From assembly GCA_021325365.1 (NCBI GenBank), contig JAJPHF010000127.1, positions 1-31,990 on the forward strand: 31,990 nt of DNA, in the 5' to 3' direction. The DNA is from Pseudomonadota bacterium (GTDB lineage: Bacteria; Chloroflexota; UBA6077; JAJPHF01). The notes below the pieces were generated by a model. The model made no database searches. It had not been told where the DNA came from and worked only from the letters and a program-made list of their open reading frames with translations. This document shows positions 9,456 through 31,990 of this stretch, piece by piece (the stretch's first letter is position 1; each line of letters begins with the position of its first letter). The position numbers and the translations under genes were made by a program.

Positions 9456-9468
9456 CTCGCCTCCGCAC

Positions 9469-13380: not shown

Positions 13381-13625
13381 CGTGGTCGCCTATCTTACGC
13401 CGTACACGCCTCCCCGCGCCCGCCGCCCGCGCCCGGCCCGGGGCACCCCGCCCCGCCGGCCCGGCCCGCGGCAGGAGAGCCAGGGAGTATCGTACGGCGT
13501 AAACGATGCGACCTTCCGCGCCTGACCAGCACGCAGAAACCCGCGCCCGGCCTAGCAGTTAACCACCCGGTAAAGGAGCATCGTTTGACCGTTCCTCGGC
13601 TAAACGCATACACCCGACAGCGGGG
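13381..13625 (+). promoter_or_regulatory. Repeated leader element, copy A (upstream of the ThDP-enzyme gene)
   Basis: About 245 bp here match 31744-31990 read on the minus strand. Over 13488-13605 the hand alignment is roughly 90% identical without gaps. Inside are AAACGATGC (13501-13509) and its reverse complement GCATCGTTT (13578-13586), 77 bp apart centre to centre in both copies. An alternative upstream partner for ACGAT lies at 13489-13493 (ATCGT). A further hairpin has arms CCCG (13613-13616) and CGGG (13621-13624). TTGACC at 13585 begins 201 bp before the gene's ATG. It may be an operator region for a dimeric regulator or a structured RNA leader. Confidence 0.7.
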
Positions 13626-13724
13626 CCGCGGACGCCACCAAGCGCGGCGCCCCGCACCGCCAAACCGCGGAGGACACGCCGCGAGGGCCGGACTCGGCCG
13701 GCGTGCCGAGCCCGGGGCGGCGCG

Positions 13725-13733
13725 TGGTAGAGT
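13725..13733 (+). promoter_or_regulatory. Possible extended -10 promoter element
   Basis: TGGTAGAGT fits a TGnTAnnnT extended -10 and lies 52 bp before the ATG. A similar TGCTATGGT occurs at almost the same distance before glcD. No good -35 is visible, so this is tentative. Confidence 0.3.
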
Positions 13734-13785
13734 TAGCCGCGCGGGCGGCACCACGGCCGCCGACAGAGACAAGGGGGTCGGAGCG

Positions 13786-15510
13786 ATGGGCACGGTGACG
13801 GGAGCCGAGCTGCTGGCGCGGGCGCTGCGCGCCGAGGGCGTCGACACGATCTTCACGCTGATCGGCGACCACATCCTGCCCGTGGCCGACGCCGCCTTCG
13901 AGCACGGCATTCGCTTCGTGGACACCCGCCACGAGTCGGCCGCCATGCACATGGCGGATGGCTGGGCGCGCACAACCGGCCGTACCGGCGTCTGCATGGT
14001 CACCGGCGGCCCGGGCCACGCCAACGTCATCGCCGGGCTGGCGGTCACCTACCTCGTCGAGACGCCAGTGGTGCAGATCAGCGGCCGGCCCGACATCGCC
14101 CAGGAAGGCCTGCTGGCCCTCCAGGAGCTAGACCAGCTCGGCATGGCCGCGCCCGTGACGAAGGACGCGGCCCTGGTGCGCGCGCCGGCCGACATTCCGC
14201 AGGCCGTGGCGCGGGCCTTCCGGCTGGCCCGCGCCGGCCGGCCCGGGCCGGTCCACCTCACCGTGCCGCTCGACGTACAGGACGCCACGGTGGACGACAG
14301 CCGCGTGCCACGCCTGCCCGCGGTCGGTGCGCGGGCAGAGAGCCGCGCCACGCCCGACGCCGCCAGCGTCGAACAAGCGCTGGCGATGCTGCGCGCCGCC
14401 GAGCGACCCGTCGTGATCGTCGGCGCGGCCGCGCGCTACGGTGTCGCGCCCGAGGCGCTCGCCGCCCTGGCCGAGCGGGAGCGCCTGCCCGTCTTCACCG
14501 TGGAGCAGGCGCGCGGACTCCTGGCCGACGACCACCCGCTGAGCTTCGGCTACGCCGACGTGACGCTCAACGCCGCCGCCCGCTACCTCCGCGAGGCCGA
14601 CGTGCTGCTGCTCATCGGCAAGCGCCTCGACTGGCGCATCGGCTTCGGCCGGCCGCCCGCCGTGGCGCCCGATGCGCGCGTCATCCAGGTCGAGGCCGAT
14701 CCGACCGAGGTGGGCCGCAACCGCGCCGTCGACCTCGCCCTCGTCGGCGACCTCGGCGCCACGGTAGACACGCTGGCCGCCGTGCCCCCGCCCCCTACCG
14801 CCAACACTCCATCGTCCGCGCGCGCCGCCTGGCTCCACGCGCTGCACGCTGCGCGCGAGGAGCACTTCGCCCACCTACGCCAGCTGGCCGACGACCCAGA
14901 GGCGCCGCTGCACCCGATGACCGTTGCCCGGGCCGTCGAGCCGTTCCTGGCGCCCGACTCGATCGTCGTCATGGACGCGGGTGACTTCGTGCAGTGGCCG
15001 CGCGCGTACCTGCCCGCCCGTTGGCCGGGCCGCTGGATTCGCACCGGGCCGCTGGGTCACCTGGGCGTCGGCCTGCCGATGGCGCTCGGCTGCCAGGTGG
15101 CGGCGCCCGACGCGCGGGTGACGCTGTTCATCGGCGACGGCGGCCTGGGTTTCTACTTCATGGAGCTGGACACGGCCGTGCGCCACAACCTGCCCGTCGT
15201 CGTGGTTGTCGGCAACGACGCCACCTGGGGGATCGACAACGGCTACCAGCTCGCGTACTACGGCCGCGCGGTCGCCACCAACCTGCGCCCCGTGCGCTAC
15301 GACCGGCTGATGATCGACCTGGGCGGCCACGGCGAGCGCGTCGAGCGGCCCGACGACCTGCCCGGCGCGCTCGAGCGCGCATTCGCCGCGGGGCGCCCCG
15401 CCCTCGTCGACGTGGCCCTGCGCCGTATCCCGAGCGCGCTCGCGGAGGCGACGATGCGCCGCCGGCTGGGCGATACGCCGCCCAAAGTCGATCTGAGCCG
15501 CTGGCGGTAA
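13786..15510 (+). CDS. ThDP-dependent enzyme, acetolactate-synthase/2-hydroxyacyl-CoA-lyase-like
   Basis: The 574-aa product has the three domains of the acetohydroxyacid synthase superfamily. The N-terminal PYR domain has the ThDP-activating Glu50 in DTRHESAAMHMADGW and MVTGGPGHANVIAGL. The central domain follows with RPVVIVGAAARYG. The C-terminal PP domain has the Mg-diphosphate motif GDG at 450-452 through Asn477 (VGNDATWG). It could carboligate or decarboxylate 2-oxo acids or act on 2-hydroxyacyl-CoA; the substrate is not readable. Glyoxylate carboligase is tempting, but that enzyme has Val in place of the catalytic Glu. ATG 13786 is preceded by AGGGGG. The frame is open further upstream only because it reads through the leader element. 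The SDR gene follows 99 bp downstream. Confidence 0.9.
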   Translation: MGTVTGAELLARALRAEGVDTIFTLIGDHILPVADAAFEHGIRFVDTRHESAAMHMADGWARTTGRTGVCMVTGGPGHANVIAGLAVTYLVETPVVQISGRPDIAQEGLLALQELDQLGMAAPVTKDAALVRAPADIPQAVARAFRLARAGRPGPVHLTVPLDVQDATVDDSRVPRLPAVGARAESRATPDAASVEQALAMLRAAERPVVIVGAAARYGVAPEALAALAERERLPVFTVEQARGLLADDHPLSFGYADVTLNAAARYLREADVLLLIGKRLDWRIGFGRPPAVAPDARVIQVEADPTEVGRNRAVDLALVGDLGATVDTLAAVPPPPTANTPSSARAAWLHALHAAREEHFAHLRQLADDPEAPLHPMTVARAVEPFLAPDSIVVMDAGDFVQWPRAYLPARWPGRWIRTGPLGHLGVGLPMALGCQVAAPDARVTLFIGDGGLGFYFMELDTAVRHNLPVVVVVGNDATWGIDNGYQLAYYGRAVATNLRPVRYDRLMIDLGGHGERVERPDDLPGALERAFAAGRPALVDVALRRIPSALAEATMRRRLGDTPPKVDLSRWR

Positions 15511-15609
15511 GCGTCGCCGACCCGCTGGGAGCGCGGCCGTCCCGGCCGCCCGGTCCCCCTCGGGGGCTCCGCTGGCGTGCGCCAGACGCGGCAAGGCAAG
15601 GAGGCAAGT

Positions 15610-16503
15610 ATGCAGCCGACAGGCTCCTTCATGAGCAGCCTGGACGGGCGCGTGGCGTTCGTTACGGGCGCGGCGTCGGGCATCGGGGGGGCGATCGCCC
15701 TCGAGCTAGGACGCTGGGGCGCGCGGGTGGCCGTCGCCGACCTGGACGCCGCGGGCGCGATCGAGACAGTCGCGCAGCTAGCCGAGGCAGCCCCTCGGCC
15801 CCCGAGTGCCGAGGGAGGCTCGCCCGCCTCGCCCCCGAATCCTGGAGCGCGTTCGGCTGATACTCAGCCCCACGACGAGCGACGCGCGGCCCCGGGGACC
15901 GCCGCTAGCGGGCGAGGGCTCGCGGTGCCGGTGGACGTGACGGACTACGCGGCGGTCCAGCGTGCCTTCGCCTTCGTGCGCGAGCGGCTGGGGCCTGTGG
16001 ACATCCTGGTGAACGCGGCCGGCTGGGACACCCCCGAGCGCTTCGTGGACAGCGAGCCGGCCACGTGGGAGCGCCTGCTAGCAATCAACCTGCGCGGGGT
16101 CATCCACACGGTCCACGCGGCGCTGCCCGCCATGCAGGAGCGCCGCTACGGCCGCATCATCAGCCTCGGGTCGGACGCCGGTCGCGTCGGCTCCTCGGGC
16201 GAGGCAGTGTACTCCGCCGCGAAGGGCGGCGTCATCGCCTTCACGAAGACAATCGCCCGCGAGACAGCGCGTCACGGCATCACCGTGAACTGCGTCTGTC
16301 CCGGCCCGACCGACACGCCGCTGCTGGCCCGGTTCACGGAGGCGAACCCCCGGCTGGTCGAGGCGCTGCAACGGGCAATCCCCATGGGCCGCCTGGGACA
16401 GCCAGCCGACGTCGCGCCGGCCGTAGCCTTCCTGGCGTCGGACGGCGCGGCCTTCATCACGGGGCAGACGCTCAGCATCAGCGGCGGCCTCACGATGAGC
16501 TGA
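15610..16503 (+). CDS. Short-chain dehydrogenase/reductase with a 39-aa insertion
   Basis: This is a 297-aa classical SDR that oxidises or reduces an alcohol/carbonyl with NAD(P)H. It has TGAASGIGG for nucleotide binding, an Asp (VADLDAAG) after the second strand that suggests NAD preference, NAAGWD, a catalytic Ser in the SLGSDAGRVGSSGE region, the active-site YSAAK, and a PGPTDTPLL loop. Residues 62-100 (DNA 15793-15909) form a proline/alanine-rich stretch absent from normal SDRs, inserted between the helix after strand 2 and strand 3. The core motifs are undamaged. ATG 15610 has a strong AAGGAGG 5 bases upstream. It is probably in an operon with the ThDP enzyme, handling its product. Confidence 0.93.
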   Translation: MQPTGSFMSSLDGRVAFVTGAASGIGGAIALELGRWGARVAVADLDAAGAIETVAQLAEAAPRPPSAEGGSPASPPNPGARSADTQPHDERRAAPGTAASGRGLAVPVDVTDYAAVQRAFAFVRERLGPVDILVNAAGWDTPERFVDSEPATWERLLAINLRGVIHTVHAALPAMQERRYGRIISLGSDAGRVGSSGEAVYSAAKGGVIAFTKTIARETARHGITVNCVCPGPTDTPLLARFTEANPRLVEALQRAIPMGRLGQPADVAPAVAFLASDGAAFITGQTLSISGGLTMS

Positions 16504-16509
16504 GCTGCC

Positions 16510-16619
16510 GCTACCCCGTCCCTGGTATCGTTCGCCACGCGGCCACAGCCGGCCGCTCGCTCCTGAATGGCCGATGTCTGCTGCTACCCCGTCCGTGGTA
16601 CCGTTCGCCACGCGGCCAC
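16510..16619 (+). repeat. 37-bp direct repeat, two copies
   Basis: Copies at 16510-16546 and 16583-16619 match at 35 of 37 bases, starting GCTACCCCGTCC and ending GCCACGCGGCCAC, with a 73-bp period. They lie between the SDR gene and the tRNA gene. They look like a local duplication, and no function is apparent. Confidence 0.8.
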
Positions 16620-16661
16620 GGCGGCACCTGGTACGCGGCAGCGCCACCCTAAGCACGCCAT

Positions 16662-16691
16662 TTGCTCTCGGGCCCCGCGCTCCAGTAGAAT
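16662..16691 (+). promoter_or_regulatory. Possible promoter of the tRNA-Ala gene
   Basis: TTGCTC (16662-16667) and TAGAAT (16686-16691) are separated by 18 bases and end 12 bases before the tRNA 5' end, consistent with a very short leader. Confidence 0.45.
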
Positions 16692-16703
16692 CCTTACGTC
16701 CCA

Positions 16704-16776
16704 GGGCGTGTAGCTCAGCCGGGAGAGCGCGCGGTTCGCATCCGCGAGGTCAGGGGTTCGATTCCCCTCACGTCCA
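16704..16776 (+). tRNA. tRNA-Ala (anticodon CGC)
   Basis: This is a 73-base cloverleaf. The acceptor arms GGGCGTG and CACGTCC pair with the G3:U70 wobble that marks alanine tRNAs. The D stem is GCTC/GAGC. The anticodon stem CGCGG/CCGCG holds loop TTCGCAT (anticodon CGC, reading GCG). The T stem AGGGG/CCCCT holds TTCGATT, and the discriminator is A. The following bases are CCCA, so the CCA tail does not appear to be gene-encoded in the exact position. Confidence 0.97.
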
Positions 16777-16780
16777 CCCA

Positions 16781-16814
16781 CAGCGCCGTGGTTCTCCGCG
16801 GCGCTGTTTTCTTT
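16781..16814 (+). terminator. Rho-independent terminator of the tRNA gene
   Basis: An 8-bp stem CAGCGCCG (16781-16788) with CGGCGCTG (16799-16806) is followed directly by TTTTCTTT, starting five bases after the tRNA. Confidence 0.88.
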
Positions 16815-16974
16815 CGTCCGCCGATTGCCGGCGCCGGTCCGCGCCCGCTCCCATCTCAAAACTGTAGCTCCATCCAGACACCGTGCCGGCTTCGCGACCT
16901 TGCCCGCCTCCCCAATTGCTGCCTACGATGAATGAGCGTCCGGCATCGGGTCCCAGCTAACGGGAGCGAGAAGC

Positions 16975-17895
16975 GTGGAACCGCGGCTGCAGCAAGTTGC
17001 GTTGGTCCTGGCGGGCGCGGTGGTCGGATTCGTGCTCACGATGGCCGGCGCGACCGCGCTGGGAGGCTACAGGCTCGGCACGGCGGCGCCCGGAGCAGCA
17101 CGGTCACTGCCCACGCCAGCCGTCGGCACCCCCCGGCCGACGCCAGCGCCCACCGTGACGGTCCAGGCTTTGCTCCCCGGGCTCACGCCGACCGTGCCGC
17201 CGACGCCGCAGCCCGCCCCGCCGACCCCGTCGCCCACCGAGGAGCCGACGGAGGCCCCGGCAGCCGCCGAAGCACCCGAAACAGCCGAGCCACCCTCCAC
17301 GACAGCGGAGACCGACGAGTCGGAGGCAACGGAGGCAACAGACGAGCCGGATACCACGGTGGACGCCGCGGTCCCGCCGGCCCCAGCGCCGCCCGCGGGC
17401 CCGCCACCGGCCAGACGGCCCACGGCCGTGCCCCGCGTTGCCGCACCGACGCCAACCGCCGCCCGGCGTGTCGCGCCCGCAGCCCCGAACCCGCCCGTCG
17501 CGGCGCCCCGCGCGCCTGCGGCTCCGAGCCGCCGAGCGCCCGCAGAACCCCCGCCGGAGAGCGCGAGCGCCGCGGTGCCTGCAGCGCCGCCCAGCAACCC
17601 GCCGCCGGCCGCTGCGGCACCGCCCACCGCCGTGCCACCGCCACCCACGATCGCGCGCCCGCCCGCGCCGGCCGCTCCGCCCCCGGCGCCCCCGACAGCC
17701 GTGCCCCCACCGCCCACGGCGGCCCGGGCCGCCCCCGTGCCCCCGGCCACGCACCCAAGCCCCGCGCCGACCGCCCGGCCGGAGGCGCCTGCGCGCCTAG
17801 CCCCGGCTCCCCAAGCATTTCCGACGAGCCTAATGCCCCAGCCACGGCTAACGCCGCCGGCGATCGCCGTGCCCACGCTGCTGCCGGCTCGCTAG
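16975..17895 (+). CDS. Proline/alanine/threonine-rich membrane-anchored protein
   Basis: The 306-aa product starts with MEPRLQQVALVLAGAVVGFVLTMAG, a single N-terminal hydrophobic segment (about residues 7-29) that should anchor it or serve as an uncleaved signal. Nearly all the rest is low-complexity Pro/Ala/Thr sequence: first a Thr/Glu/Asp-rich acidic part (about 70-130), then Pro/Ala with scattered Arg. No folded domain is recognisable. It may be an extended, perhaps glycosylated, cell-surface stalk. GTG 16975 has GGGAG 8 bases upstream. The stop overlaps that of the convergent PAP2-like gene within a CTAG. Because the sequence is low complexity, database similarity alone would not show function. 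Confidence 0.6.
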   Translation: MEPRLQQVALVLAGAVVGFVLTMAGATALGGYRLGTAAPGAARSLPTPAVGTPRPTPAPTVTVQALLPGLTPTVPPTPQPAPPTPSPTEEPTEAPAAAEAPETAEPPSTTAETDESEATEATDEPDTTVDAAVPPAPAPPAGPPPARRPTAVPRVAAPTPTAARRVAPAAPNPPVAAPRAPAAPSRRAPAEPPPESASAAVPAAPPSNPPPAAAAPPTAVPPPPTIARPPAPAAPPPAPPTAVPPPPTAARAAPVPPATHPSPAPTARPEAPARLAPAPQAFPTSLMPQPRLTPPAIAVPTLLPAR

Positions 17896-18611
17896 CGCCG
17901 ACCAGCTACCACCGGCTGCACGGGAGCGGCGTGGTGGGAGGCGAGCAGGGTGGCGGTCGCCAGCGCCCCGCCCAGCAGCGCCCCACCCAGAAGGTCGGTC
18001 GGCCAATGCCAGCTTAGCACTAGGCGGCTGGCGAGGAGCAGCGCGAGCACCCCGGCCAGGAGCAGCATGATCAGGCGAGCGCGGAGCCGGGCCTGCGGGA
18101 CGTGAGCGGAGTTCGCCGCCTGTCGGTGGAGCAGCCAAGCCGCGGCGAGGACGAAGAAGTAAGTCACGCGGATCGCGTAGCCGCTCGGGTAGGAGTGCGG
18201 CGTCAGCACGGAGATGGTCGGGTGATACCACTCGCAGGCGCCCGGGATGGGGAACAGGACGCCCGGCAGCGGCTGAGCCAGGGTTAGCTTCAGGCCCAGT
18301 TCGATAGGCACGCTGAGATAGAGCAGTAGCAGCGCCGCGGCCGCGCGGGACCGGCGGCGGACCAGGCAAACCGCCGCCAGGAGCGCGGTCAGGAGTAAGG
18401 ATACCTCCCCTGCCCCGGCGAAGCTCAACCCAGTTGCCAGCGCGACGTCGCCACAGTCGCGGTGGGCGGCGATCCAACGAAGCATCGGCTCGTCGACGGG
18501 CAGCAACCAGCCATGCGCAGTCGCCAGGGTGATCACGAGGAAGCCAAGCGCCGCGCTAGCCAGCGCCAGGACATAGGCGCGGACCGACGGCTCGGCTCTA
18601 ACTTGCGCCAC
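17892..18611 (-). CDS. PAP2-superfamily membrane protein with altered phosphatase motifs
   Basis: The 239-aa product has about six hydrophobic helices and the layout of type 2 phosphatidic acid phosphatases, which remove phosphate from lipid phosphates or undecaprenyl pyrophosphate at the membrane. The third motif is intact (SRLVLSWHWPTD, Ser195-Arg196-His202-Asp206). In the first motif Lys108 is present but the usual Arg is Leu115. In the second, PSGH reads PSGY (Tyr145), so the acid/base His is missing. Activity may be weak, different or lost. GTG 18611 has only a modest GAGG upstream. It converges with the proline-rich gene, and the two stops share a CTAG. It lies 79 bp downstream of the gas-vesicle/kinase operon. 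Confidence 0.85.
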   Translation of the reverse strand: MAQVRAEPSVRAYVLALASAALGFLVITLATAHGWLLPVDEPMLRWIAAHRDCGDVALATGLSFAGAGEVSLLLTALLAAVCLVRRRSRAAAALLLLYLSVPIELGLKLTLAQPLPGVLFPIPGACEWYHPTISVLTPHSYPSGYAIRVTYFFVLAAAWLLHRQAANSAHVPQARLRARLIMLLLAGVLALLLASRLVLSWHWPTDLLGGALLGGALATATLLASHHAAPVQPVVAGRR

Positions 18612-18690
18612 CGCGGCCTCGCAAGCCCCGCGCCGGGCGTCGGGCAGGCCAGCGATAGGCTACGCTAACGGGGCCGACGTACACCAGGCG

Positions 18691-19842: not shown

Positions 19843-19951
19843 GATGCGCCTCCTCCGCGTCCTGGACCGCCTCCGCACGCTGCGCCCAGTCACGCGCTCG
19901 GCCCGTCCCCCGTCCCGGCTCGCCCGCGGGGTTCCTAGTCGTCCGCACTGC

Positions 19952-21976: not shown

Positions 21977-22010
21977 CGTGACGACGATTCCTCGGCGTGG
22001 CAGCGCTTAC

Positions 22011-22292: not shown

Positions 22293-22657
22293 TATTCACT
22301 CCCGCTCTGTTGTCGCCGCGCGGCCCTTCGGGCCGACCGCGCTGCCGGTGTGGTCGGGGCGGCAAGCTGCCGCTCCAGCATCTCTACCCGCGCCCGCAGC
22401 GCGGCTAACTCTTCCGGTTCAGCAAGCTCGGCTTGGCTGCTAAGAAACCCGTCGTGGCGCCACCAGTCAAGCCCGATCTCCTGCGCTTTGTCAATCGAGC
22501 ATACGAGCAGCCGGATACGTACCGTGAGCAGCTCCACGTTGGCTAGCGACACACGAATGTCGCCGGCGACAACCAGGCCCTTGTCCAGCACACGGTCGAG
22601 GATGTCGACTAGGCTCGTCGCCCGTGGCTGACTGGAAGCGGTCCGCTCCAGGCTCAC
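22292..22657 (-). CDS. gvpJ: Gas vesicle protein GvpJ (GvpA paralogue)
   Basis: The 121-aa product shares the GvpA core ([19 protein letters not shown], then [19 protein letters not shown]) but continues with [19 protein letters not shown], a GvpJ-type extension. After it come a Glu/Ala/Leu-rich helix ([19 protein letters not shown]) and a basic tail. GvpJ is a minor shell protein thought to cap or nucleate the vesicle ends. GTG 22657 overlaps the stop of the upstream fusion gene (GTGA), and GGTGAT lies 5 bases before it, which suggests translational coupling. GvpM is the main alternative name within this paralogue group. Confidence 0.88.
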
Positions 22658-23280
22658 AGGAGATCACCCAACGGCCCCAGGTCGAGATTCAGATCTCCCT
22701 CCTCCAGGCCAAAGACGGCGCGTAGCTCGACCATCTTCGCCTCCAGCTCCATCAGGGCCAACCCCATTCGCTCGATCTCCTCCGCAGCGAGCCCGCCCCC
22801 TTCCATGCGTCGCACGGCCTGGCGCTCCAGGATTTGGCGCAGTAGCTCCACTAAGGTTAACACCAGACGCGCCAGCCCACGCTCGGGCGACTCGCCCGCA
22901 TCTGCCTCCGTTCGCCCTGGCAGCCCTGCCAACAGCTCGGACGGGGACTGCTCTACCAGCATGTCCCGGACCACCGAGCCCAGAGCACCAGGTCGCGGGC
23001 CGACGGTCTTCGCGGCGACTGGCGGCTGGGCCACAACTGATCTGGCCGCCAGGGCCCCGCCGGTCGTGGTGGCCAGCGGTCCCGGCGCTCCCGCGCCCGG
23101 CTCGCGCTCGCGGAGCGTCTCTACCGACGACACCAGCAGGTTAAGCCCGAGGTACACGAGATCCACGCCCGCCAGCGACAGGGTAGTCTGGCCGACCAGC
23201 ACCGCGCCTCGGTTGAGCAGGTGATCGACAGCGTCGACGAGCGCGAGGCGCTCCGTCAGCGGCTCTTCAAGCGGCGCCAT
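22654..23280 (-). CDS. GvpS/GvpJ-like domain fused to GvpK
   Basis: The 208-aa product joins two gas-vesicle proteins that are usually separate. Residues about 9-57 (RLALVDAVDHLLNRGAVLVG, TTLSLAGVDLVYLGLNLLVS) are a GvpA-superfamily domain closest in pattern to GvpS. A Pro/Ala/Gly-rich linker of about 70 residues follows. Residues about 132-208 (PERGLARLVLTLVELLRQIL, then RRMEGGGLAAEEIERMGLAL, then the terminal [13 protein letters not shown]) are a complete GvpK domain. GvpK is an assembly factor needed for vesicle formation. The fusion is continuous in one frame with no internal stop, and the linker has no obvious start site. It overlaps gvpJ by 3 bases (GTGA) and the upstream gvpF/L gene by 14. 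Confidence 0.9.
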   Translation of the reverse strand: MAPLEEPLTERLALVDAVDHLLNRGAVLVGQTTLSLAGVDLVYLGLNLLVSSVETLREREPGAGAPGPLATTTGGALAARSVVAQPPVAAKTVGPRPGALGSVVRDMLVEQSPSELLAGLPGRTEADAGESPERGLARLVLTLVELLRQILERQAVRRMEGGGLAAEEIERMGLALMELEAKMVELRAVFGLEEGDLNLDLGPLGDLL

Positions 23281-24172
23281 AATCCTGCCCGACGAACGAG
23301 TATGGGGCCCACGGGCCGGTCAGCTGGACACTCACCCCTTGCGGCTCGTACGCGCGCGCCAGCTCGGCCGCGATTGCCCGGAACGCGTCGGCGGCGGTCG
23401 CATCGACCAACAAGGCCGCGCTCAGCATCAGCCGCGTCGGACCGGGCGCCGCCGCCCCCACAGCATTGCGTCGCGCCGCGGCACTTAGCGATTCGAGCCG
23501 GCCGAATATCGCGGCGAGCGCCTCCGCAGCCAGGCGATCGGCCGCCGCGGCGCGCAGCCGCTCGCGCCGCTTGCGGAGCAGGTAGGCCCGCCCGGGACTC
23601 GCCTGAGCGATCTCCGAGGCGAGCCGGCACAGCTCGTCGCTAGATTCGTTCACCGTGGCGAGCCAGCGTGCGTCGTCTCGGTACACCCTCAGCCCCCACT
23701 CGTACTTGCCACGCACCCGCTCCAGCAAGGTGCGAAACTCCTCCGCGCGCTCGCGGAGCAACGCCTCGACCCGCTCCGGCCCTCGGTAAACCGTGCCGAA
23801 TGCCATCGGCACCAGGGCCGGCGCAGCCGGTAGCAGGGCACGGACCGCATCCTCGTGCTGTACGGCGAGCGGCGCCAACCGCGGGAGGTCGGTCAGCAGC
23901 GCGTTGAGCGGCTCTTCTTCGAACGTCGCGCTCGGCACGCGGCTCACGGCAGCCACGAGGTCTCCCACGGTGATCGGAAACAGCGGCTCGCGCGGGTCGA
24001 GTCCTGACACCGCGCGGTTCGCCAAGAGTCGCTCGCCCTCGGTCCCGGCCTCAACGATCCCGTATAGGTAGAGGAGTGCCGGTGCTCCAGTGAGTGTGAC
24101 GTCTACCGCGCCGGCAGGCCGCTCTCCCGCATCGCGTGGCGAGCTTCCCCGGCGCCCGCCGATTGGGGTCAT
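23267..24172 (-). CDS. Gas vesicle protein GvpF/GvpL family (second copy)
   Basis: The 301-aa product is a GvpF/L assembly protein. In characterised systems GvpF contacts GvpA at the growing vesicle, and GvpL interacts with many accessory proteins. Visible hallmarks are LLYLYGIVEAG at the start of the N-terminal domain, the central LVPMAFGTVYRGPERVEALL, KYEWGLRVY, and the C-terminal VQLTGPWAPYSFVG. The first 28 residues are Gly/Arg/Pro-rich. The ATG overlaps the gvpG stop by 4 bases (ATGA), with AGGAG 5 bases upstream. It is much more alanine- and arginine-rich than the first copy. Which of the two is GvpF and which GvpL cannot be settled from sequence alone. Confidence 0.92.
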   Translation of the reverse strand: MTPIGGRRGSSPRDAGERPAGAVDVTLTGAPALLYLYGIVEAGTEGERLLANRAVSGLDPREPLFPITVGDLVAAVSRVPSATFEEEPLNALLTDLPRLAPLAVQHEDAVRALLPAAPALVPMAFGTVYRGPERVEALLRERAEEFRTLLERVRGKYEWGLRVYRDDARWLATVNESSDELCRLASEIAQASPGRAYLLRKRRERLRAAAADRLAAEALAAIFGRLESLSAAARRNAVGAAAPGPTRLMLSAALLVDATAADAFRAIAAELARAYEPQGVSVQLTGPWAPYSFVGQDYGAA

Positions 24173-24471
24173 GGCGGCTCCTGCCCGCTGTAGGTGATCG
24201 CGGGCGAATCGGGTTCCGCCGATGGGCGGGCGAGCGACTGGCGGTACTCGCGGGCCGCCCGCAGGCGGGCCATGATGTCCGCCTCCTGCGCGGCGTAGTC
24301 TTGCTCGGTGATCTCCCCCTCGTCGAGGTGAAGCTGCAGCTCAAGTAATTCTTCGCGGATACGGGCCTCGTCGTATAGCTCGCGCTCCGCCATCTCCTCG
24401 ATCCGGTTCAGTATGAAGCGGAATCCGGTCAGCGGCGCCGTGAGCGGAGCGGTGAGCAGCTTCAACAGCAT
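24169..24471 (-). CDS. gvpG: Gas vesicle protein GvpG
   Basis: The 100-aa product is a charged, helical GvpG: LLKLLTAPLTAPLTGFRFIL at the start, then NRIEEMAERELYDEARIREE, then LLELQLHLDEGEITEQDYAA, a typical coiled-coil-forming arrangement with a DEGEIT turn. The tail is Ser/Pro-rich. GvpG is a small assembly factor that binds GvpF/L-type proteins. Its ATG overlaps the upstream gvpF stop as TGATG and its own stop overlaps the next ATG, so the three are translationally coupled. Confidence 0.93.
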   Translation of the reverse strand: MLLKLLTAPLTAPLTGFRFILNRIEEMAERELYDEARIREELLELQLHLDEGEITEQDYAAQEADIMARLRAAREYRQSLARPSAEPDSPAITYSGQEPP

Positions 24472-25298
24472 CAGCCCGAGGTCCCTGCGCGCTCTAGCTT
24501 GAGGCGAATATTCACGAAGTTGTATGGCGGCCAGGGGCCAGTGTAAAGAAAGCGCAGCTTGCCCTCGTAGCGCTGGGCGATCTCCTGCACCTTCTGATCG
24601 AAGGCGCCCGCGCTGCTGCGCTCCACCAGGAAGGCGGCGTTCAGGATCATCTTGTCGCCAATGGGTTTGTTGTGCCGCGAGGCAATGGCGCAGTCGCGCA
24701 GGTGATCGTAGATCTCGCGGACGTATGCGTCCGACTTCTCACTCATCGCCTGTTCCACCAGGCGGCCAAGTTGCATGCGTGCGAAGTACGTGGAGGTCTG
24801 TCGGTTGGACATGATTTCGTCCTTCAACCGCCCGATCTCCTCGCTTTCGTCCTCGACCTCTTTCAGTACCGTCTCGGGCGTCCAGTTCACCTTCAGCCCG
24901 AACTCGATCTTGTCCTTCATCTTCTCCAGCACGTCGCGCAAGGCATCGGCCGTGTCCTTCAGGAACTCGACCACGTCCTCCTCAGTGCGAAACACCGTGC
25001 CGAAGCTCATCGGAATGACTGTGAACTCCTTCATCACCGTCTCATTGACGTGCTCGTAGGTCAGCGCGTTCTCCCTCGTCGGGTCGTAGACCATCACGGG
25101 GGTATCCGACACGACCGCCGCCAACCCGCCGTGATGGATGGTGTACACTTCATCGCCACGGCCGCCCATACCGATGTTCCCGAAACTGCGGGGCACGTCC
25201 GCCTCGATGATGCAATAGACCAGCTTGCCCTCGTCGGGGTCGCGCGCCGACGGACGCTCGTCAATAGCAGCCAGGAGCCCCTCCTCTTCCGCGGTCAT
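24471..25298 (-). CDS. gvpF: Gas vesicle protein GvpF/GvpL family (first copy)
   Basis: The 275-aa product is the first gene of the gas-vesicle operon. It shows KLVYCIIEADV at the N-terminal domain, FTVIPMSFGTVFRTEEDVVE, KDKIEFGLKVNW, a lysine/glutamate-rich helical middle, NAAFLVERSSAGAFDQKV, and the terminal FLYTGPWPPYNFVNIRL that marks GvpF/GvpL. ATG 25298 is chosen because GGTGAT (end of an extended Shine-Dalgarno) lies 3 bases upstream. The 34 codons before it are not GvpF-like. It is less GC-rich and more lysine-rich than the second copy, closer to canonical family members. It likely acts as a chaperone for GvpA during nucleation. Confidence 0.93.
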   Translation of the reverse strand: MTAEEEGLLAAIDERPSARDPDEGKLVYCIIEADVPRSFGNIGMGGRGDEVYTIHHGGLAAVVSDTPVMVYDPTRENALTYEHVNETVMKEFTVIPMSFGTVFRTEEDVVEFLKDTADALRDVLEKMKDKIEFGLKVNWTPETVLKEVEDESEEIGRLKDEIMSNRQTSTYFARMQLGRLVEQAMSEKSDAYVREIYDHLRDCAIASRHNKPIGDKMILNAAFLVERSSAGAFDQKVQEIAQRYEGKLRFLYTGPWPPYNFVNIRLKLERAGTSG

Positions 25299-25583
25299 CA
25301 GATCACCCCACGACAGAATAGCAGGTGTATAGGGCCCGGAGAACCACCCGGCCCGGCATGATACGCCCGGGGCCAAAAGGCAGGCCAGCGGCGTCGGCAC
25401 GCCACGCGCAGTCTACGCGCGCAGCAAGATGTATGCCAATAAGATCCCGGGGCAGCAGCAGCGATATGCTTGACGCGCCCCCCCGTCGATGCCAAGCTAT
25501 AGGCACCATTGGCGGCTCAACTCTTCGGCCGCAACACGGGCCCCAACCTCGCGACCACCTCTGACAGAAAGGCTGCGCTACCC
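25299..25583. other. Divergent promoter region between the gas-vesicle operon and the TPR gene
   Basis: This 285-bp gap must contain the gas-vesicle operon promoter (minus strand) and the TPR gene promoter (plus strand). On the minus strand, TTGGCA then 18 bases then TAGACT is a weak candidate, as is TTCTCC then 17 bases then TATTCT nearer the gene. On the plus strand, TTGACG near 25468 lacks a well-placed -10. I see no clear inverted-repeat operator. Confidence 0.3.
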
Positions 25584-27092
25584 ATGCATGTTACCCTTCG
25601 CATGGCCGCCGTGCTGGCCGCAAGCCTGGCGCTCGTCTCCGGTGCCTTCACGCCGTTCACACCGCGAGCGCTGGCAGCACCGGTGGGTCAGTTCGACTAC
25701 CAGGGACGCGCCGCGCAACGCTTCGAGGCGGGCGACTTCCAGGGCGCCGTCGACGACTACACCCGCGCCATCCAAGGCAACCGCAACAACGACCGCAGTC
25801 GCGCCGACGCGTACGTGGGACGGGGCAATGCGCTCGCGCGGCTCGGCAACCTCACCGCCGCCATCGACGACTTCACCCACTCCCTGCTGTTCGCCAACAC
25901 GCCGGAGGCGTACGTCGGACGGGCCGATGCGCGGGCGCGGCAGGGCGACGTGCAGGGTGCGATGGACGACTACGCGACGGCGCTGCGCCTGACCGCCAAT
26001 AGCCCGGCGGCCGCCGACGTGTACAGCGCTCGCGCTACCATGCGGGCCGCACGCGGCGATACGGCTGGGGCGCTCGACGACTTGGCGCAGGCGATCCGCC
26101 TCCGCCCGACCGCCGATCTCTATACGACTCGCGCGGACCTGCGGATGAAGGCCGGCGACCGCGAGGGCGCGATGCAGGACCTGGCACAGGCCATCGCCAT
26201 CAACCCCAACTCGGTGGACGCGCTCAGCGCACAGGCCGGCGCGCTCGCGGACAGCGGCAACCCGCAGGCGGCCATCGAGTACTTCAATCGCGTCCTGGCG
26301 ATCGATCCCCGCGCGGTGGATGCCTACAGCGGCCGAGGCTACGCCCGCTCGGCGCTCGGCGATACGAACGGCGCCATCGAGGATTTCAGCCTGGTCTTGC
26401 AGCTGAATCCCAACGCGGCGGACGCTTACAGCGGCCGCGCCTACGCGCGCTCCAGCGCGGGCGACGTGGCCGGCGCCATCGACGACTTCACCCGGGCCAT
26501 CCAACTCAATCCCAACCTCGCCGATGCCTACCTGGGGCGCGCCTACGCGCGCATTACAGAGAATGACACCACGGGCGCCATTGACGATTTTTCTCAGGCC
26601 ATTAGTCTCAATCCGAACCTGGTCGACGCTTACGACGGCCGCGGCAACGCGCGCGCCAGCAGCGGGGATGCGCAAGGCGCCCTTGAGGATTTCACGCAGA
26701 TCATCCGGCTCCGGCCCACTGCTGCCGCCTACAGCAGCCGCGCCTACGCGAACGCAACGCTCGGCAACCCGCAGGCGGCCATCGACGACTTCACGCAGGC
26801 CATCCAGCTCGATCCGCGGCTCGCCGATGCCTACAGCGGCCGCGCGTACGCTCGCGTGGCGATGGGTGACACGCGGGGCGCAATCGACGACTTCAGCCAG
26901 GCGCTGGCGATCGACGACACCCTGGCCGATGTATACATGGGCCGGGGCTACGCGCGCGGCGAGCTGGGCGACCGCGCCGGCGCCCGCGCCGACATGCAGC
27001 GCGCAGCCGATCTCTTCGCGGCGCAGGGCAAGCCCGACCAGGCCCGGGACGCGCGCAACGCCATCGACGACTTCGCGGACGACGAAGAGTAA
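25584..27092 (+). CDS. Secreted/periplasmic TPR-repeat protein (13 repeats)
   Basis: The 502-aa product has an N-terminal signal peptide (MHVTLRMAAVLAASLALVSG, cleavage likely near PRALAAPVG). About 13 consecutive 34-residue tetratricopeptide units follow, of the form ADAYSGRAYARxxxGDxxGA then IDDFTQAIQLNPNL. The repeats are most alike in the C-terminal two thirds, suggesting recent internal duplication. It ends in an acidic DDFADDEE tail. TPR superhelices bind other proteins, and no catalytic domain is present. The start at 25584 is chosen so that the signal peptide begins the protein; an in-frame ATG at 25509 would add 25 unlikely residues. It is divergent from gvpF, but a functional link is unproven. 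Confidence 0.9.
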   Translation: MHVTLRMAAVLAASLALVSGAFTPFTPRALAAPVGQFDYQGRAAQRFEAGDFQGAVDDYTRAIQGNRNNDRSRADAYVGRGNALARLGNLTAAIDDFTHSLLFANTPEAYVGRADARARQGDVQGAMDDYATALRLTANSPAAADVYSARATMRAARGDTAGALDDLAQAIRLRPTADLYTTRADLRMKAGDREGAMQDLAQAIAINPNSVDALSAQAGALADSGNPQAAIEYFNRVLAIDPRAVDAYSGRGYARSALGDTNGAIEDFSLVLQLNPNAADAYSGRAYARSSAGDVAGAIDDFTRAIQLNPNLADAYLGRAYARITENDTTGAIDDFSQAISLNPNLVDAYDGRGNARASSGDAQGALEDFTQIIRLRPTAAAYSSRAYANATLGNPQAAIDDFTQAIQLDPRLADAYSGRAYARVAMGDTRGAIDDFSQALAIDDTLADVYMGRGYARGELGDRAGARADMQRAADLFAAQGKPDQARDARNAIDDFADDEE

Positions 27093-27254
27093 CCGACGTG
27101 CCCTCGACCCCTCCTCGCGGCATGGAATGGGGTGGACCGGAACGACACATCGCAGTCCACTACCCAAGCCGCGCTCAACCGAGCGGGGGCAACGGCCCCG
27201 GCGCCGTCTGCCCCCCTTCCTTACACAACGGCGACGTGGCGGCCTTCGCACCGG
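27093..27254. other. Convergent intergenic gap
   Basis: The TPR gene and glcF end facing each other across 162 bp. I see no clear T-tailed hairpin. The glcF-proximal part (about 27265-27300) is a C-rich/G-rich repeat-like stretch that encodes the low-complexity GlcF tail. Confidence 0.35.
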
Positions 27255-28601
27255 CTAAGCCGGCTCCCCGCTTGCCTCGGAGGGAAGAGGGGCCGGGGGA
27301 GTCCGGTACGCCTCGTCGAGCAACTCGACGAGATGGCGGACGCGGATAGGGCTGCCGATCTCGGCCAGACCCGCTTGGAGCTGGAGCATGCAGCCGGGAT
27401 TGGCCGAGACGATGACCTCAGGTGTCATGTCGAGGGCATTGGCGAGCTTGCGCCGGCGGAGGTCGCCGGACAGGCCCGGATTGGTGAGATTGTAGATGCC
27501 CGCGCTACCACAGCACAGGTCGGATTCAGCCATCTCCACGAGCTGCACGCCGGGGATCGCCCGCAAGAGCTGGCGCGGCTGGGTCTTGATGCCCTGCGCG
27601 TGGACGAGGTGACACGGCTCCTGGTAGGTGACCCGCAGGTCGAGCCGGCCGGGCGGCGGGACGAGATCGAGCGCGGCCAGGTACTCGGTCACGTCCTTGA
27701 CCTTGGCGGCCATGGCCGCGGCGCGCTCGGCGTAGGCCGGGTCGTCGGCGAGCAGGTGGCCGTACTCCTTGAGCGCGGCGCCGCAGCCGGCGGCATTCAC
27801 GACGATCGCCTCGACGTCGAGCCGCTCGAACGCCTCGACGTTGCGCCGCATGAGCGCACGGCCGTCGTCCAAGAGGCCCGCGTGGACGTGCAGCGCGCCG
27901 CAGCAGCCCTGGCCGGGCGGGGCGACGACCTCGCAGCCGTTCGCCGCCAGCACGCGGGCCGTCGCACGGTCGATCTCCGCGTAGGCGGTGCTCATCACGC
28001 AGCCGGCGAACAACGCGACGCGCCGCTGCGCTGTCCCCGTGGGCATCCAGGTCTGGCCCTTAGGCACCAGGAACTGGCGGTCGATGGCGGGCAGCATCCG
28101 CTCGCGCTCGGCCAGGCCGGCGACGCGCAATAGGCCGGTGGCGCGGGCGAGCCGTTGCAGCCCCGTGCGCTGGTACAGGCGCAGCAGCCCGGCGAACAGC
28201 CGAAAGCGCGGCATCGAGGCGAAGAGACCGCCGAAGACCACCCGCCTAAGCAGGCGCTGCGACCACGGTCGCGGCGTCGCGCGCTCGATCTGGGCGCGGG
28301 CCGCCTCGACGAGCTGGCCGTACTGCACGCCGGAGGGGCACACCGCCTCGCAGGCACGGCAGTCGAGGCACTGGTACATCTGCTCACGGAAGACTGGCGA
28401 GTCGAGACCGATGCGCCCTTCGGCCACCTGGCGGATCAGGTGGATGCGGCCCCGCGGCGAGGACGGCTCGACGTAGCGCTCGCGGTACGTCGGACAGTTT
28501 GGCAGGCACAGTCCGCAGTGGACGCACGTCTGCAGGATGTTGTCGGACGGCACGTCGGGTGACGTGAAGCCCGCTCGAGGAGGCGCTGCGGTCGTGTCCA
28601 C
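27255..28601 (-). CDS. glcF: Glycolate oxidase iron-sulfur subunit GlcF
   Basis: The 448-aa product has two N-terminal 4Fe-4S motifs: CVHCGLCLPNC (Cys26, 29, 32, 36) and CLDCRACEAVC (Cys78, 81, 84, 88). Two C-terminal CCG domains follow (GCCGALHVHAG and LCCGSAGIYN), as in GlcF and heterodisulfide-reductase subunit D. It passes electrons from the GlcD/GlcE flavoproteins to the respiratory chain at the membrane. The last 15 or so residues (PPAPLPSEASGEPA) come from repeat-like DNA. GTG 28601 has only a weak purine-rich site upstream. It lies 79 bp after glcE and completes the operon. Confidence 0.93.
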   Translation of the reverse strand: MDTTAAPPRAGFTSPDVPSDNILQTCVHCGLCLPNCPTYRERYVEPSSPRGRIHLIRQVAEGRIGLDSPVFREQMYQCLDCRACEAVCPSGVQYGQLVEAARAQIERATPRPWSQRLLRRVVFGGLFASMPRFRLFAGLLRLYQRTGLQRLARATGLLRVAGLAERERMLPAIDRQFLVPKGQTWMPTGTAQRRVALFAGCVMSTAYAEIDRATARVLAANGCEVVAPPGQGCCGALHVHAGLLDDGRALMRRNVEAFERLDVEAIVVNAAGCGAALKEYGHLLADDPAYAERAAAMAAKVKDVTEYLAALDLVPPPGRLDLRVTYQEPCHLVHAQGIKTQPRQLLRAIPGVQLVEMAESDLCCGSAGIYNLTNPGLSGDLRRRKLANALDMTPEVIVSANPGCMLQLQAGLAEIGSPIRVRHLVELLDEAYRTPPAPLPSEASGEPA

Positions 28602-28680
28602 GGCTCTTACCGCCTGCGAGGCTGGGATGCGCCTGGGCCACCGCCAGGGGCCAGGCGCTCGGCGCGGCAGGGCGCCCGGG

Positions 28681-30150
28681 CTAGATGCGGCCCACGTAGC
28701 GCCCGGGGTTCAGGATGCCACTGGGGTCAAAGCGCGCCTTTAGCTCGCGCATGACCGCGAGCCCCGCCGGCTCGCGGCCCCACAGCGGCAGGTTCTCCTT
28801 CGCCACCGTGGGGCAGGAGAGCACGACCGACTGCCCCCAGCGACGCACCAGCTCGGTCTGCAGCGCCCAGAGCGCCCAGGCGAACACCGCGGGCAGCGCG
28901 TCCTCCGGCTGCCCCACGCGCAGGTAGATGATACCAGAGCCCGCGTCGGCGAACTGGAGGCAGCGGAGGTCCACCTGGCCCGCCACCTCGGCCACGCCCG
29001 CCATTACCGCCGGCAGGTCGCTGGGCACGACGCTGAGCTTGAGCAATGCGCTGTTGCGCGGGTCGGCGTCGAGCGTCTGAAACGCCAGCAGGCCGTCCCA
29101 GAAGGTTGCCGCAGCATCGGCCGCCAGCGCGCGCGCGTCGGCGGCGCCCCAGACCCCGGCGCGGCTGCAGACTTCGCGGACCTGGCGCGCGGTCGTCACC
29201 TCGGCGCCCTCGAAGCGTGCGGCCAGCGCGGCGCCGGCAGTGCCCGGGCTGCCGCTGGCCGACGGACGCACGCCCAGGCCGCCGGCGACGACGCCGTCGA
29301 GCACGACCACGGCGCAGGGCAGTAGCTGCGACGCGAGCAGCGACTCGGCGGCGACGAGCGCGGCGTCGAGCGCGGCGAAGCTGAGCACGGCGGTGCCGTC
29401 GGCCGGCGGGCGCGGCGAGAGCTTGAAGTTCAGCTCGACGATCACGGCCAGCGTGCCGAGCGAGCCGACGTACAGCTTCATCATGTCGTAGCCGGAGACG
29501 TTCTTCACGACCATGCCGCCGCCGCGCGTGAGCGTGCCGTCGGGGTGAGCCGCGCGCACGCCGATGAGCGCGTCGCGGGCGGTGCCGTAGCGGAAGCGAC
29601 GCGGGCCGGAAAGGTTGGCGGCGACGAGGCCGCCGAGCGTCGCCGTTTCGGGCCGCGGGCAGTCGAGCGCGAGCCGCTGGCCGTGAGCCGCGAGTACCGC
29701 GTCGAGTGCGGCGAAGCTGACGCCCGCCTGGACCGCTAGCGTGAGGTCGGCGGGCTCGTAGGCGACAACCTGGCTCAGCCGGCGCAGGTCGAGCGCGAGG
29801 TCGGCGGCGCGGGGCGGATAGCCGAGCGCCATCGCCGTGCCGCCGCCCCAGGGGATCACGGCGGCGCCGGCCTCGTTCGCCAGCGCCAGCACTGCGACCA
29901 CTTCCTCTGCGCTGCCGGGCGCGGCGACCAGCGCGGGCGTCAGATCGTCGACACGGTATGCCGCGCACCGCTCGCCGGCGTACACCCAATCGGCGCCCAG
30001 CGCGTCCACCAAGCGTCGCTGGAGCGCGACCGCCGCGTCAGGTGCGAGGGGCCGTGGGCTGAGGGCCGGGGGCCAGAGACTATCGTCTCCCGCTGGCCCC
30101 TGCCCCCCGCCCGCAGGTCGCTGCGCCGGGCCTTGCGCCTCAGTGGCCAT
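28681..30150 (-). CDS. glcE: Glycolate oxidase FAD-binding subunit GlcE
   Basis: The 489-aa product has the PCMH-type FAD-binding domain of the GlcD/GlcE family. VIPWGGGTAMALGYPP corresponds to the FAD phosphate loop. ETATLGGLVAANLSGPRRFR and GGGMVVKNVSGYDMMKLYVG then SLGTLAVIVELNFKL match GlcE. The C-terminal FARFDPSGILNPGRYV-like segment (ARFDPSGILNPGRYVG) is the usual end. The first 40 residues are Pro/Gly/Ala-rich, and the true start may be internal. ATG 30150 overlaps the glcD stop by 11 bases, implying translational coupling. It is longer than E. coli GlcE (about 350 aa), mostly in the middle domain. Confidence 0.92.
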   Translation of the reverse strand: MATEAQGPAQRPAGGGQGPAGDDSLWPPALSPRPLAPDAAVALQRRLVDALGADWVYAGERCAAYRVDDLTPALVAAPGSAEEVVAVLALANEAGAAVIPWGGGTAMALGYPPRAADLALDLRRLSQVVAYEPADLTLAVQAGVSFAALDAVLAAHGQRLALDCPRPETATLGGLVAANLSGPRRFRYGTARDALIGVRAAHPDGTLTRGGGMVVKNVSGYDMMKLYVGSLGTLAVIVELNFKLSPRPPADGTAVLSFAALDAALVAAESLLASQLLPCAVVVLDGVVAGGLGVRPSASGSPGTAGAALAARFEGAEVTTARQVREVCSRAGVWGAADARALAADAAATFWDGLLAFQTLDADPRNSALLKLSVVPSDLPAVMAGVAEVAGQVDLRCLQFADAGSGIIYLRVGQPEDALPAVFAWALWALQTELVRRWGQSVVLSCPTVAKENLPLWGREPAGLAVMRELKARFDPSGILNPGRYVGRI

Positions 30151-31591
30151 ATTCGGCCAGCAGCGCCGCGTGGCGGCTGTCCTGGCGCACTTCGCGCACC
30201 TCCGCGCAGGACACGCGGCTGGGGAAGATCTTGTCCGGGTTGAACAGGTCGCGCGGGTTGAAGCTGCCCTTCAGCCGCGCCATCGCCGCCAGGTCGTCGG
30301 CCGTGAAGATCAGCGCCATCTGCTCCTTCTTCTCCAGGCCGATGCCGTGCTCGCCCGAGATCGTGCCGCCCATGTCGATGCAGGTCTGGAGGATCTCCAC
30401 GCCGGCGCGCAGCACGCGCTCGACGGCCCCTTGGTCGCGGCGGTCGAACAGGATCAGCGGGTGCAGGTTGCCGTCGCCCGCGTGGAAGACGTTGGCGATG
30501 CGCAGGTCGTACTCGCGGCTCACCGCCTCGACGCGCGCCAGCGTGGCGGGCAGCTTCGTGCGCGGCACGACGCCGTCCTGCATGTAGTAGCTGGGGGCCA
30601 GCCGGCCCATCGCGCCGAACGCCATCTTGCGAGCGTTCCACAACGCCGCCCGCTCCTCGGCGGTGGCCGCGACGCGCACGCTGCGGGCCGCATTGTCGCG
30701 ACAGATGGCGGCGATGCGCTCGATGGCGAGGTCCAGGCCCTCGCCGAGCCCGTCGACCTCGATCAGCAGCACGGCGCCCACGTCGGGCGGGAAGCCGACG
30801 TGGTACGCCTCCTCGACGGCCTGGCAGACGAGCCGGTCCATCATCTCCATCGCGGCCGGCACGATCCCCTGGGCGATCACCGCCGAGACGGTGTTCGAGG
30901 CGTCAACCACGTTGTCGAACTGGGCGAGCAGCACGCGCACCGCCTCGGGCAGGCGCGTCAGGCGCAACAGCGCCTTGGTGACGATGCCCAGGGTGCCCTC
31001 GGAGCCGACGATCACGCCGGTGAGATCGTAGCCGGGCGTGTCGAGCCCCGGGCCGCCCGTCCAGACTAACTCGCCGCTCGGCAGCACCACCTCCAGCGCT
31101 AGCACGTGGTTCGTGGTCACGCCATAGGCCAGACAGTGCGGCCCGCCGGAGTTCTCGGCCACGTTGCCGCCGATCGTGCAGGCTTTCTGGCTGGAGGGGT
31201 CGGGCACGTAGTAGTAGCCGTGCGGGCTCGTGGCCATGGAGAGGTCGAGGTTGATGACGCCGGGCTCGACCAGCGCGCGGCGGTTGCGGTAGTCCAGCTC
31301 CAGGATACGGTTCATGCGGGTCATGGCGACCTGGATGCCGCCGCGCTTGGCAACCGCGCCGCCCGACAGTCCCGTGCCGGCGCCGCGCGGCACGATCGGC
31401 ACGTCGGCCTCGTTCGCCAGGCGGACGATCTCGACGACCTGCTCGGCGCGCGTGGGCAGCACGACAACCGAGGGCTCGTGGACGTCGAAGGCGCCGTCGT
31501 ACTCGTAGATGGCCAGCTCGTCCGGCCGGTGCACGACGCCATCCGGCCCCAGGACCTGCTGCAGCCGCGCGACCAGCTCAGTGCGCTCCAT
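30140..31591 (-). CDS. glcD: Glycolate oxidase subunit GlcD (FAD-linked 2-hydroxyacid oxidase)
   Basis: The 483-aa product is the catalytic flavoprotein that oxidises glycolate (or D-lactate-like 2-hydroxyacids) to the 2-oxo acid. It has PRGAGTGLSGG at 68-78, PDPSSQKACTIGGNVAENSGG, VIVGSEGTLGIVTKALLRL, FHAGDGNLHP and GEHGIGLEKK, all typical of the VAO/PCMH family. The ending FNPRDLFNPDKIFPS and short tail are also usual. ATG 31591 is chosen because the conserved protein begins here. The open frame continues another 65 codons upstream only through the leader element. The order glcD-glcE-glcF is that of E. coli, but no glcC-type regulator is present. D-lactate dehydrogenase is an alternative substrate assignment. 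Confidence 0.94.
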   Translation of the reverse strand: MERTELVARLQQVLGPDGVVHRPDELAIYEYDGAFDVHEPSVVVLPTRAEQVVEIVRLANEADVPIVPRGAGTGLSGGAVAKRGGIQVAMTRMNRILELDYRNRRALVEPGVINLDLSMATSPHGYYYVPDPSSQKACTIGGNVAENSGGPHCLAYGVTTNHVLALEVVLPSGELVWTGGPGLDTPGYDLTGVIVGSEGTLGIVTKALLRLTRLPEAVRVLLAQFDNVVDASNTVSAVIAQGIVPAAMEMMDRLVCQAVEEAYHVGFPPDVGAVLLIEVDGLGEGLDLAIERIAAICRDNAARSVRVAATAEERAALWNARKMAFGAMGRLAPSYYMQDGVVPRTKLPATLARVEAVSREYDLRIANVFHAGDGNLHPLILFDRRDQGAVERVLRAGVEILQTCIDMGGTISGEHGIGLEKKEQMALIFTADDLAAMARLKGSFNPRDLFNPDKIFPSRVSCAEVREVRQDSRHAALLAEYGH

Positions 31592-31640
31592 CGCTCTGCT
31601 CTCTCTGCCGTGTAGCGCCCCCGGACGCCTCTCTGGGGGC

Positions 31641-31649
31641 ACCATAGCA
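31641..31649 (-). promoter_or_regulatory. Possible extended -10 promoter element of glcDEF
   Basis: On the minus strand TGCTATGGT fits TGnTAnnnT and lies about 50 bp before the glcD ATG, matching TGGTAGAGT at 13725-13733 in position. No clear -35 is seen. Confidence 0.3.
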
Positions 31650-31743
31650 CGCTTTGGCCCGTGGAGACGAGCCACATAGCCCAATCGGGTGTTTCCCGCG
31701 GTTCGGCGTCGCGTGGTCGGGGCGCGGCCCGACCGGACGTGAG

Positions 31744-31990
31744 ACCCCGAGTGCGGGGTGCGCAAGTTTATCCGAGGAACGGTCAAACGATGCTCCTTTA
31801 CCAGTCGGTTAAGTGCTAGGCCGGGCGCGGGTCTGCGCGCGCTGGTCGGGCGCGGAAGGTCGCATCGTTTGCCCCGTACGATAATCCTCCGATGGCTCGC
31901 GGCGGGCCGGGCCGGCGGGGGCGTGCCCCGGGCATGGGCGCGGGCGGCGAGCGCGGTGGGATGCGTGTACGGGCAGGGACGGCGACCACG
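31744..31990 (-). promoter_or_regulatory. Repeated leader element, copy B (upstream of glcD), cut by the window end
   Basis: Read on the minus strand, this matches 13381-13625. AAACGATGC and GCATCGTTT (here at 31862-31870 and 31785-31793 on the plus strand) keep the 77-bp spacing. The adjacent hairpin is ACCCCG/CGGGGT (31754-31759 and 31744-31749), longer than the CCCG/CGGG of copy A. TTGACC begins 195 bp before the glcD ATG. The match runs to the last base, so the element may extend beyond the window. Confidence 0.7.

Follow-up and report, generated by a model that had tools for sequence, protein, structure and literature searches.

Control of glycolate oxidase through DNA-binding regulators is known (PMC11323563), an example being the GlcR/BhcR glycolate regulon of Paracoccus under GntR and IclR proteins, in which glycolate oxidase stands under dedicated control beside control of the pathway using its product. 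Here we analyze a 31,990-nt stretch of DNA (hereafter the window; GenBank GCA_021325365.1, contig JAJPHF010000127.1, positions 1-31,990, forward strand) from an uncultured Chloroflexota lineage (GTDB: UBA6077; JAJPHF01), in which two copies of one element lie upstream of a glcD-like (glycolate oxidase) gene and of genes encoding a thiamine diphosphate (ThDP)-dependent enzyme and a short-chain dehydrogenase/reductase (SDR). The likeness to the Paracoccus system would lie in a glycolate oxidase placed under its own control beside that of a second pathway; the difference is that a Pfam scan of 29 window proteins recognized no GntR or IclR regulator. The element also resembles translational riboswitch-type leaders in having three strands (A, B and C), with B able to pair with either A or C and with a ribosome-binding-like site on C. 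It differs from these leaders in matching no Rfam family, in a negative covariation test, in a site that is not clearly freed, in not having been found in the relatives searched, and in a TTG codon that, not being the start of the gene proper, begins a frame continuous with it. Finally, the element is comparable to ERIC and other enterobacterial RU repeats (PMC2759123) in its 100-200 bp size class, its intergenic location and the strong palindrome of one copy, and it differs from them in that the two copies face their start codons the same way and from nearly the same distance, with similarity that seems to reach the ATG.

Comparison of the window against itself with blastn aligned positions 13381-13605 (plus strand, copy 1, upstream of the ThDP/SDR operon) with positions 31990-31766 (minus strand, copy 2, upstream of glcD) at 83.6% identity over 232 columns (E ~5e-64). 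The next-best match for either copy had an E-value of 9e-4, and blastn revealed no third copy within the 32-kb window. A repeat search recovered 155 nt at 86% common to both copies, and their best local alignment scored 163, compared to a maximum of 77.5 for random pairs of window segments (at most 200 pairs, close ones skipped). Copy 2 runs into the window end at 31990, so the duplication may extend further to the left than is seen here.

An earlier note on this DNA, made from the sequence alone, had described a near-identical, gap-free core, and the alignment bears this out: 107 of 120 positions match without a single gap between 13486-13605 in copy 1 and 31766-31885 (minus strand) in copy 2. 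Identity per ungapped column is the same (0.89) in the core and in the part to its left (13381-13485; 87 of 98 ungapped columns, plus 14 gap columns), and gap columns number 0 in the core versus 14 in the left part and 30 in the stretch leading to the ATG. Identity falls sharply at 13605/31766, with the core ending ~20 nt past a TTG(ACC) sequence. From this TTG to the downstream ATG the distance is 201 bp in copy 1 and 195 bp in copy 2, and the orientation relative to the gene is identical, as had also been noted.

The stretches joining the core to the start codons (13606-13785, plus strand, 180 bp; 31592-31765, minus strand, 174 bp) appear to be weakly paralogous. Their global alignment score of 11 compares with -8.2 +/- 4.9 for shuffled sequences, 1 of 500 of which reached it (a separate shuffle test likewise gave 1/500), and it was attained by 7/1000 and 3/1000 random window segments. 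Furthermore, when 17 upstream regions of the window were compared in all 136 pairs (175 bp each, some extending into neighboring genes), the ThDP/glcD pair ranked first with a z-score of 3.25, the runner-up reaching 2.28. As judged by named relatives of its proteins, the window belongs to the Chloroflexota, and near-identical metagenome contigs carry GlcD at up to 95% and the ThDP enzyme at 84-100%. The nearest genome found (G001) encodes a GlcD 78% identical and a ThDP enzyme 71% identical to those of the window, and it retains the ThDP-SDR pair (SDR, 70%); 97 bp separate its glcD from the open frame before it, which from its sequence we take to be prmC. The upstream regions of the window resemble those of the G001 orthologues only at chance level (97/500, 95/500 and 106/500 shuffles scored as well). 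The ThDP and glcD upstream regions are therefore closer to each other than to the regions of their orthologues, which speaks for the copying of an upstream region and against the separate insertion of an element, and suggests that the copied unit was probably the entire upstream region.

The like orientation and spacing, the seeming paralogy up to the start codons and the gap-free core with its conserved dyad support a shared upstream module, and a shared cis-regulatory leader ahead of both operons is the best reading of these data, one that we put forward tentatively. According to this reading, one of the two operons in this lineage would have received a copy of the other's promoter/leader region, a stretch of ~400 bp ending at the start codon, an event that the sequence comparison supports but does not prove, and the 120-bp core may since have been retained by selection as a cis-regulatory module of both operons. 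The module might act within the transcribed leader: strand B (13492-13513 in copy 1) would pair either with arm C, over an AAAGGAG/TTG site, or with arm A, and whichever of the two pairings forms would determine how ribosomes enter ahead of both operons. Such an RNA gate is suggested with clearly less confidence than the duplication itself. In a more far-reaching form, a lineage-specific RNA switch of three mutually exclusive strands would hide or expose a TTG start lying in frame upstream, and in this way set either ribosome loading or the production of an N-terminally extended isoform of glycolate oxidase and of the ThDP enzyme; we consider this improbable.

The observations behind this mechanism concern two long-range pairings that have strand B in common. 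Hairpin I joins B to arm A (GGTCGC...TTACGCCGTAC, 13384-13405, plus strand, in copy 1), and hairpin II is formed by AAACGATGC (13501-13509, plus strand, in copy 1; 31862-31870, minus strand, in copy 2) and GCATCGTTT (arm C; 13578-13586, plus strand, and 31785-31793, minus strand), the arms being identical between copies. Shuffles gave a stem of 9 bp or more whose arms do not exceed 50% GC in 3/1000 and 0/1000 cases, and column-shuffling of the core pair produced a common stem of 9 bp or more in 6 of 5000 trials. Mismatches affect 1 of 34 paired columns of hairpin II versus 13 of 87 unpaired ones (Fisher p 0.053), the sole change in the hairpin being T-G to C-G. When folded by itself, hairpin I of copy 1 greatly exceeds shuffled sequence in stability (z -5.2; 0/200 shuffles as stable), and the strand-sharing A/B/C layout was seen in 4/1000 shuffles of copy 1, a strict criterion that copy 2 itself fails. 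Beneath arm C, both copies carry AAAGGAG-N6-TTG, a Shine-Dalgarno-like site followed by a possible start codon (13572-13587, plus strand, with the frame open to 15510; 31784-31799, minus strand, with the frame open to 30140). Counting both strands, the window contains six instances of AAGGAG with a start codon 4-9 nt behind it, two of which are those in the element copies.

The earlier note had also held that both downstream frames stay open through the element, yielding spurious N-terminal extensions. The open reading frames were confirmed (13585-15510 and 31786-30140), and the extensions look non-coding: GC content by codon position is flat within them (0.81/0.75/0.72 and 0.66/0.68/0.71) and turns coding-like at the ATGs, as illustrated by the ThDP gene (0.80/0.52/0.93). 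Since this signal begins only there, the ATGs at 13786 and 31591 are probably the long-standing starts. We thus rejected a protein-coding element, given that the extensions lack coding-like codon-position GC and that the 20 mismatches in and around the core are spread 7/8/5 over codon positions 1, 2 and 3. When copy 2 was translated in frame and searched against proteins, no match emerged at E <= 10 among 7978 scored candidates, the query being residues 1-135 of a 616-residue open frame, which limited candidates to proteins of ~340-1080 residues. The TGnTAnnnT elements that had been reported before both ATGs are present as extended -10-like boxes, lying ~60 bp upstream.

A number of results weigh against a shared regulatory leader, or against parts of the mechanism proposed for it. 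The comparison rests on two copies only, and beyond the core their similarity is faint: the local-alignment score of the core-to-ATG stretches was matched by 43/500 and 36/500 shuffles, and their identity (109/162, or 0.67) is not above that of shuffles (mean 0.64, maximum 0.76, n=200). The earlier claim of weak similarity reaching the start codons is favored by the global score and the first rank among 136 pairs, and disfavored by the local scores and percent identity. If the TGnTAnnnT boxes are real promoters, they would place the element upstream of transcription, and scans for promoters and terminators detected none. The TTG frames carry no coding signal. Blastn with the core region gave no match in any of 29 class genomes (E <= 0.001, with no positive-control genome) or 400 phylum genomes (E <= 1e-4, likewise with no positive control), an empty result obtained in this way being no evidence of absence, and at 31 loci with relatives of the ThDP enzyme the best blastn match to the element had an E-value of 0.004 over 42 columns.

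The folding calculations add to these objections. Stems of at least 9 bp are frequent in shuffles when arm composition is disregarded (213/1000 and 260/1000), the dyad being unusual only for its A+T-rich arms, and the stability of hairpin II is not above that of shuffles (z +0.9 and -1.2). Hairpin I of copy 2 is weak (z -1.7; 14/200 shuffles), and the entire 230-nt element has a z-score of -2.4 in copy 1 (1/200) but of +0.1 in copy 2 (107/200). Compensatory evolution of hairpin I appeared convincing by eye (self-pairing -69.0 versus cross-pairing -56.7) and was rejected: the signal comes from copy 1 alone, arm A of copy 2 pairs with strand B of copy 1 (-31.8) as well as with its own (-30.1), and 759/2000 permutations did equally well. 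The between-copy covariation test was negative. The predicted fold favors A:B over B:C by 4.8 and 2.6 kcal/mol, with the GG of AAAGGAG largely paired in the preferred fold (unpaired 0.05/0.05 and 0.02/0.22), such that A:B does not clearly free the site; with arm A removed, hairpin II forms in copy 2 only. The folding, as modeled, lends an RNA switch no clear support.

The earlier note had suggested searching relatives with the core and building a covariance model of the element. The first brought no match in the class and phylum genomes mentioned above (in the phylum search, at most two candidates were scored per genome among the 20 genomes listed), and a comparison of the element to four genomes gave a best blastn E-value of 0.0023 over ~30 bases. 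The covariance model produced 17 matches in 14 of the 29 class genomes at E <= 10 (best 1.2e-4 and 2.1e-4, per genome), which we rejected as homologues: the open-frame check covered the five full-length matches, and since all five lie within long open frames and their dyad arms are unconserved, they were taken as chance. One partial match (L086) has a dyad of its own. Searches of Rfam with lax thresholds returned sub-threshold matches only in both regions, the best by E-value being radC (19.3 bits versus a threshold of 40, on the strand opposite copy 2). Nothing useful came from exact element patterns in viral contigs and genome contigs or from blastn of the element against plasmids and phages, and the part of the literature that was sampled held nothing recognizable as this element.

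The main rival to a shared leader is an ERIC-like or MITE-like palindrome, dispersed between genes in many copies across the genome; the two seen here would then lie upstream of these operons by chance. This rival keeps its standing because interspersed repeats are common in the class; a different one adjoins copy 1 at 13144-13292, and its 21-mer occurs in 16 of the 29 class genomes. The strong palindrome of copy 1 (z -5.2), the abrupt fall in identity at 13605/31766 and the failure to find the element in G001 or in the class and phylum genomes are also as expected of a repeat. Chance insertion accords poorly with two copies, albeit only two, in the same orientation and at near-equal distances from the ATG, with similarity that seems to reach the start codon, and with the lack of a third copy in 32 kb; moreover, no target duplication or terminal repeat was seen by eye, in an inspection made with no dedicated tool and with one end of copy 2 beyond the window. 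On balance we regard a dispersed repeat as possible but rather unlikely. A further reading is a recent, functionless duplication of the upstream region, with higher core identity arising from gene conversion or chance. In its favor, the relatives searched yielded no match to the element, and per ungapped column the left part agrees as well as the core does. The gap-free core next to gapped flanks and the conservation beyond chance of the dyad and its A+T-rich arms speak against it, and we find it improbable.

Control could instead operate at the DNA level, through a transcription factor bound to an ATCGT-N9-ACGAT dyad and a distal ATCGTTT half-site, with promoters near the ATGs. The 5+5 dyad (13489-13507, plus strand; 31864-31882, minus strand) is unbroken in both copies and unique to them within the window, also when spacers of 6-12 are allowed, and the extended -10-like boxes ahead of both ATGs would fit such an arrangement, as would the known control of glycolate oxidase by DNA-binding regulators (PMC11323563). 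Factor sites are short, however, and conservation extends over at least 225 bp; the promoter scan was without a site; and no regulator gene could be tied to the element, the nearest being a divergent MarR gene (12451-12945) with its own perfect palindrome of different sequence at 12968-12987. We thus judge control by a transcription factor to be unlikely.

If the shared leader is regulatory, glycolate oxidation in this uncultured Chloroflexota lineage would be tied to an uncharacterized ThDP/SDR pair, and the case would exemplify a complete promoter/leader region copied to make a small regulon; should the element be a repeat, it would represent another intergenic palindrome family. The genes behind copy 2 are glcD-like (30140-31591, minus strand), glcE-like (28681-30150, minus strand) and glcF-like (27255-28601, minus strand), and all three score under the curated NCBIfam cut-offs (501.0 bits versus 567.9, 160.1 versus 284 and 332.0 versus 333, respectively), GlcF falling short by one bit. 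Behind copy 1 lies the gene for the ThDP-dependent enzyme (13786-15510, plus strand), identified by family scans and a search for structural relatives, followed, probably in the same operon, by that of an SDR-family dehydrogenase (15610-16503, plus strand), whose start was set at the ATG behind AAGGAGG. The SDR contains a Pro/Ala-rich insertion of ~39 residues that is absent from its G001 orthologue.

The ThDP enzyme reached no NCBIfam cut-off among the 25 listed of 51 families. The solved structures that match it best are oxalyl-CoA decarboxylase (263.7 bits), benzaldehyde lyase (260.4), 2-hydroxyacyl-CoA lyase (257.3) and acetolactate synthase (256.5), and glyoxylate carboligase (Gcl) chains score at most 188.9 bits among the best 60 of 68. 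In glyoxylate carboligase, valine replaces the catalytic glutamate; the glutamate (E50) of the RHESAA motif is invariant in 11 aligned sequences, including the ThDP enzyme of the window. With E50 retained and Gcl scores of at most 188.9 versus 263.7 bits, an identity as glyoxylate carboligase is not supported. The earlier proposal of a module coordinating both operons, possibly through glyoxylate, is borne out in part: a shared upstream module is supported by its orientation, spacing, gap-free core and dyad, coordinated control of the operons would be a possible consequence, and the metabolic link is not supported, since oxalyl-CoA decarboxylases and 2-hydroxyacyl-CoA lyases outscore glyoxylate carboligase as relatives of the ThDP enzyme.

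Several other features of the window were recorded. The perfect 20-bp A+T-rich palindrome upstream of the divergent marR (12945-12451), ATAGTTTATATATAAACTAT, lies directly upstream of that gene and is probably marR's own operator; it is not the same site as ATCGT-N9-ACGAT, the resemblance by eye being limited to half-sites. The REP-like repeats (CCCTCTCCC...GGGAGAGGGTCGGGGTGAGGG) that adjoin copy 1 are also found at 9310-9464, three in register at each site, and their 21-mer, counted with at most one mismatch, reaches a maximum of 120 per class genome, with 0 control matches. Positions 16505-16622, past the SDR gene and before a tRNA-Ala gene (16704), hold two 45-bp direct repeats that are 91% alike and 73 bp apart from start to start. 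Lastly, gas-vesicle genes occupy positions 22654-25400 between both operons, and encode one protein combining GvpK and gas-vesicle domains, two GvpL/F proteins and one GvpG.

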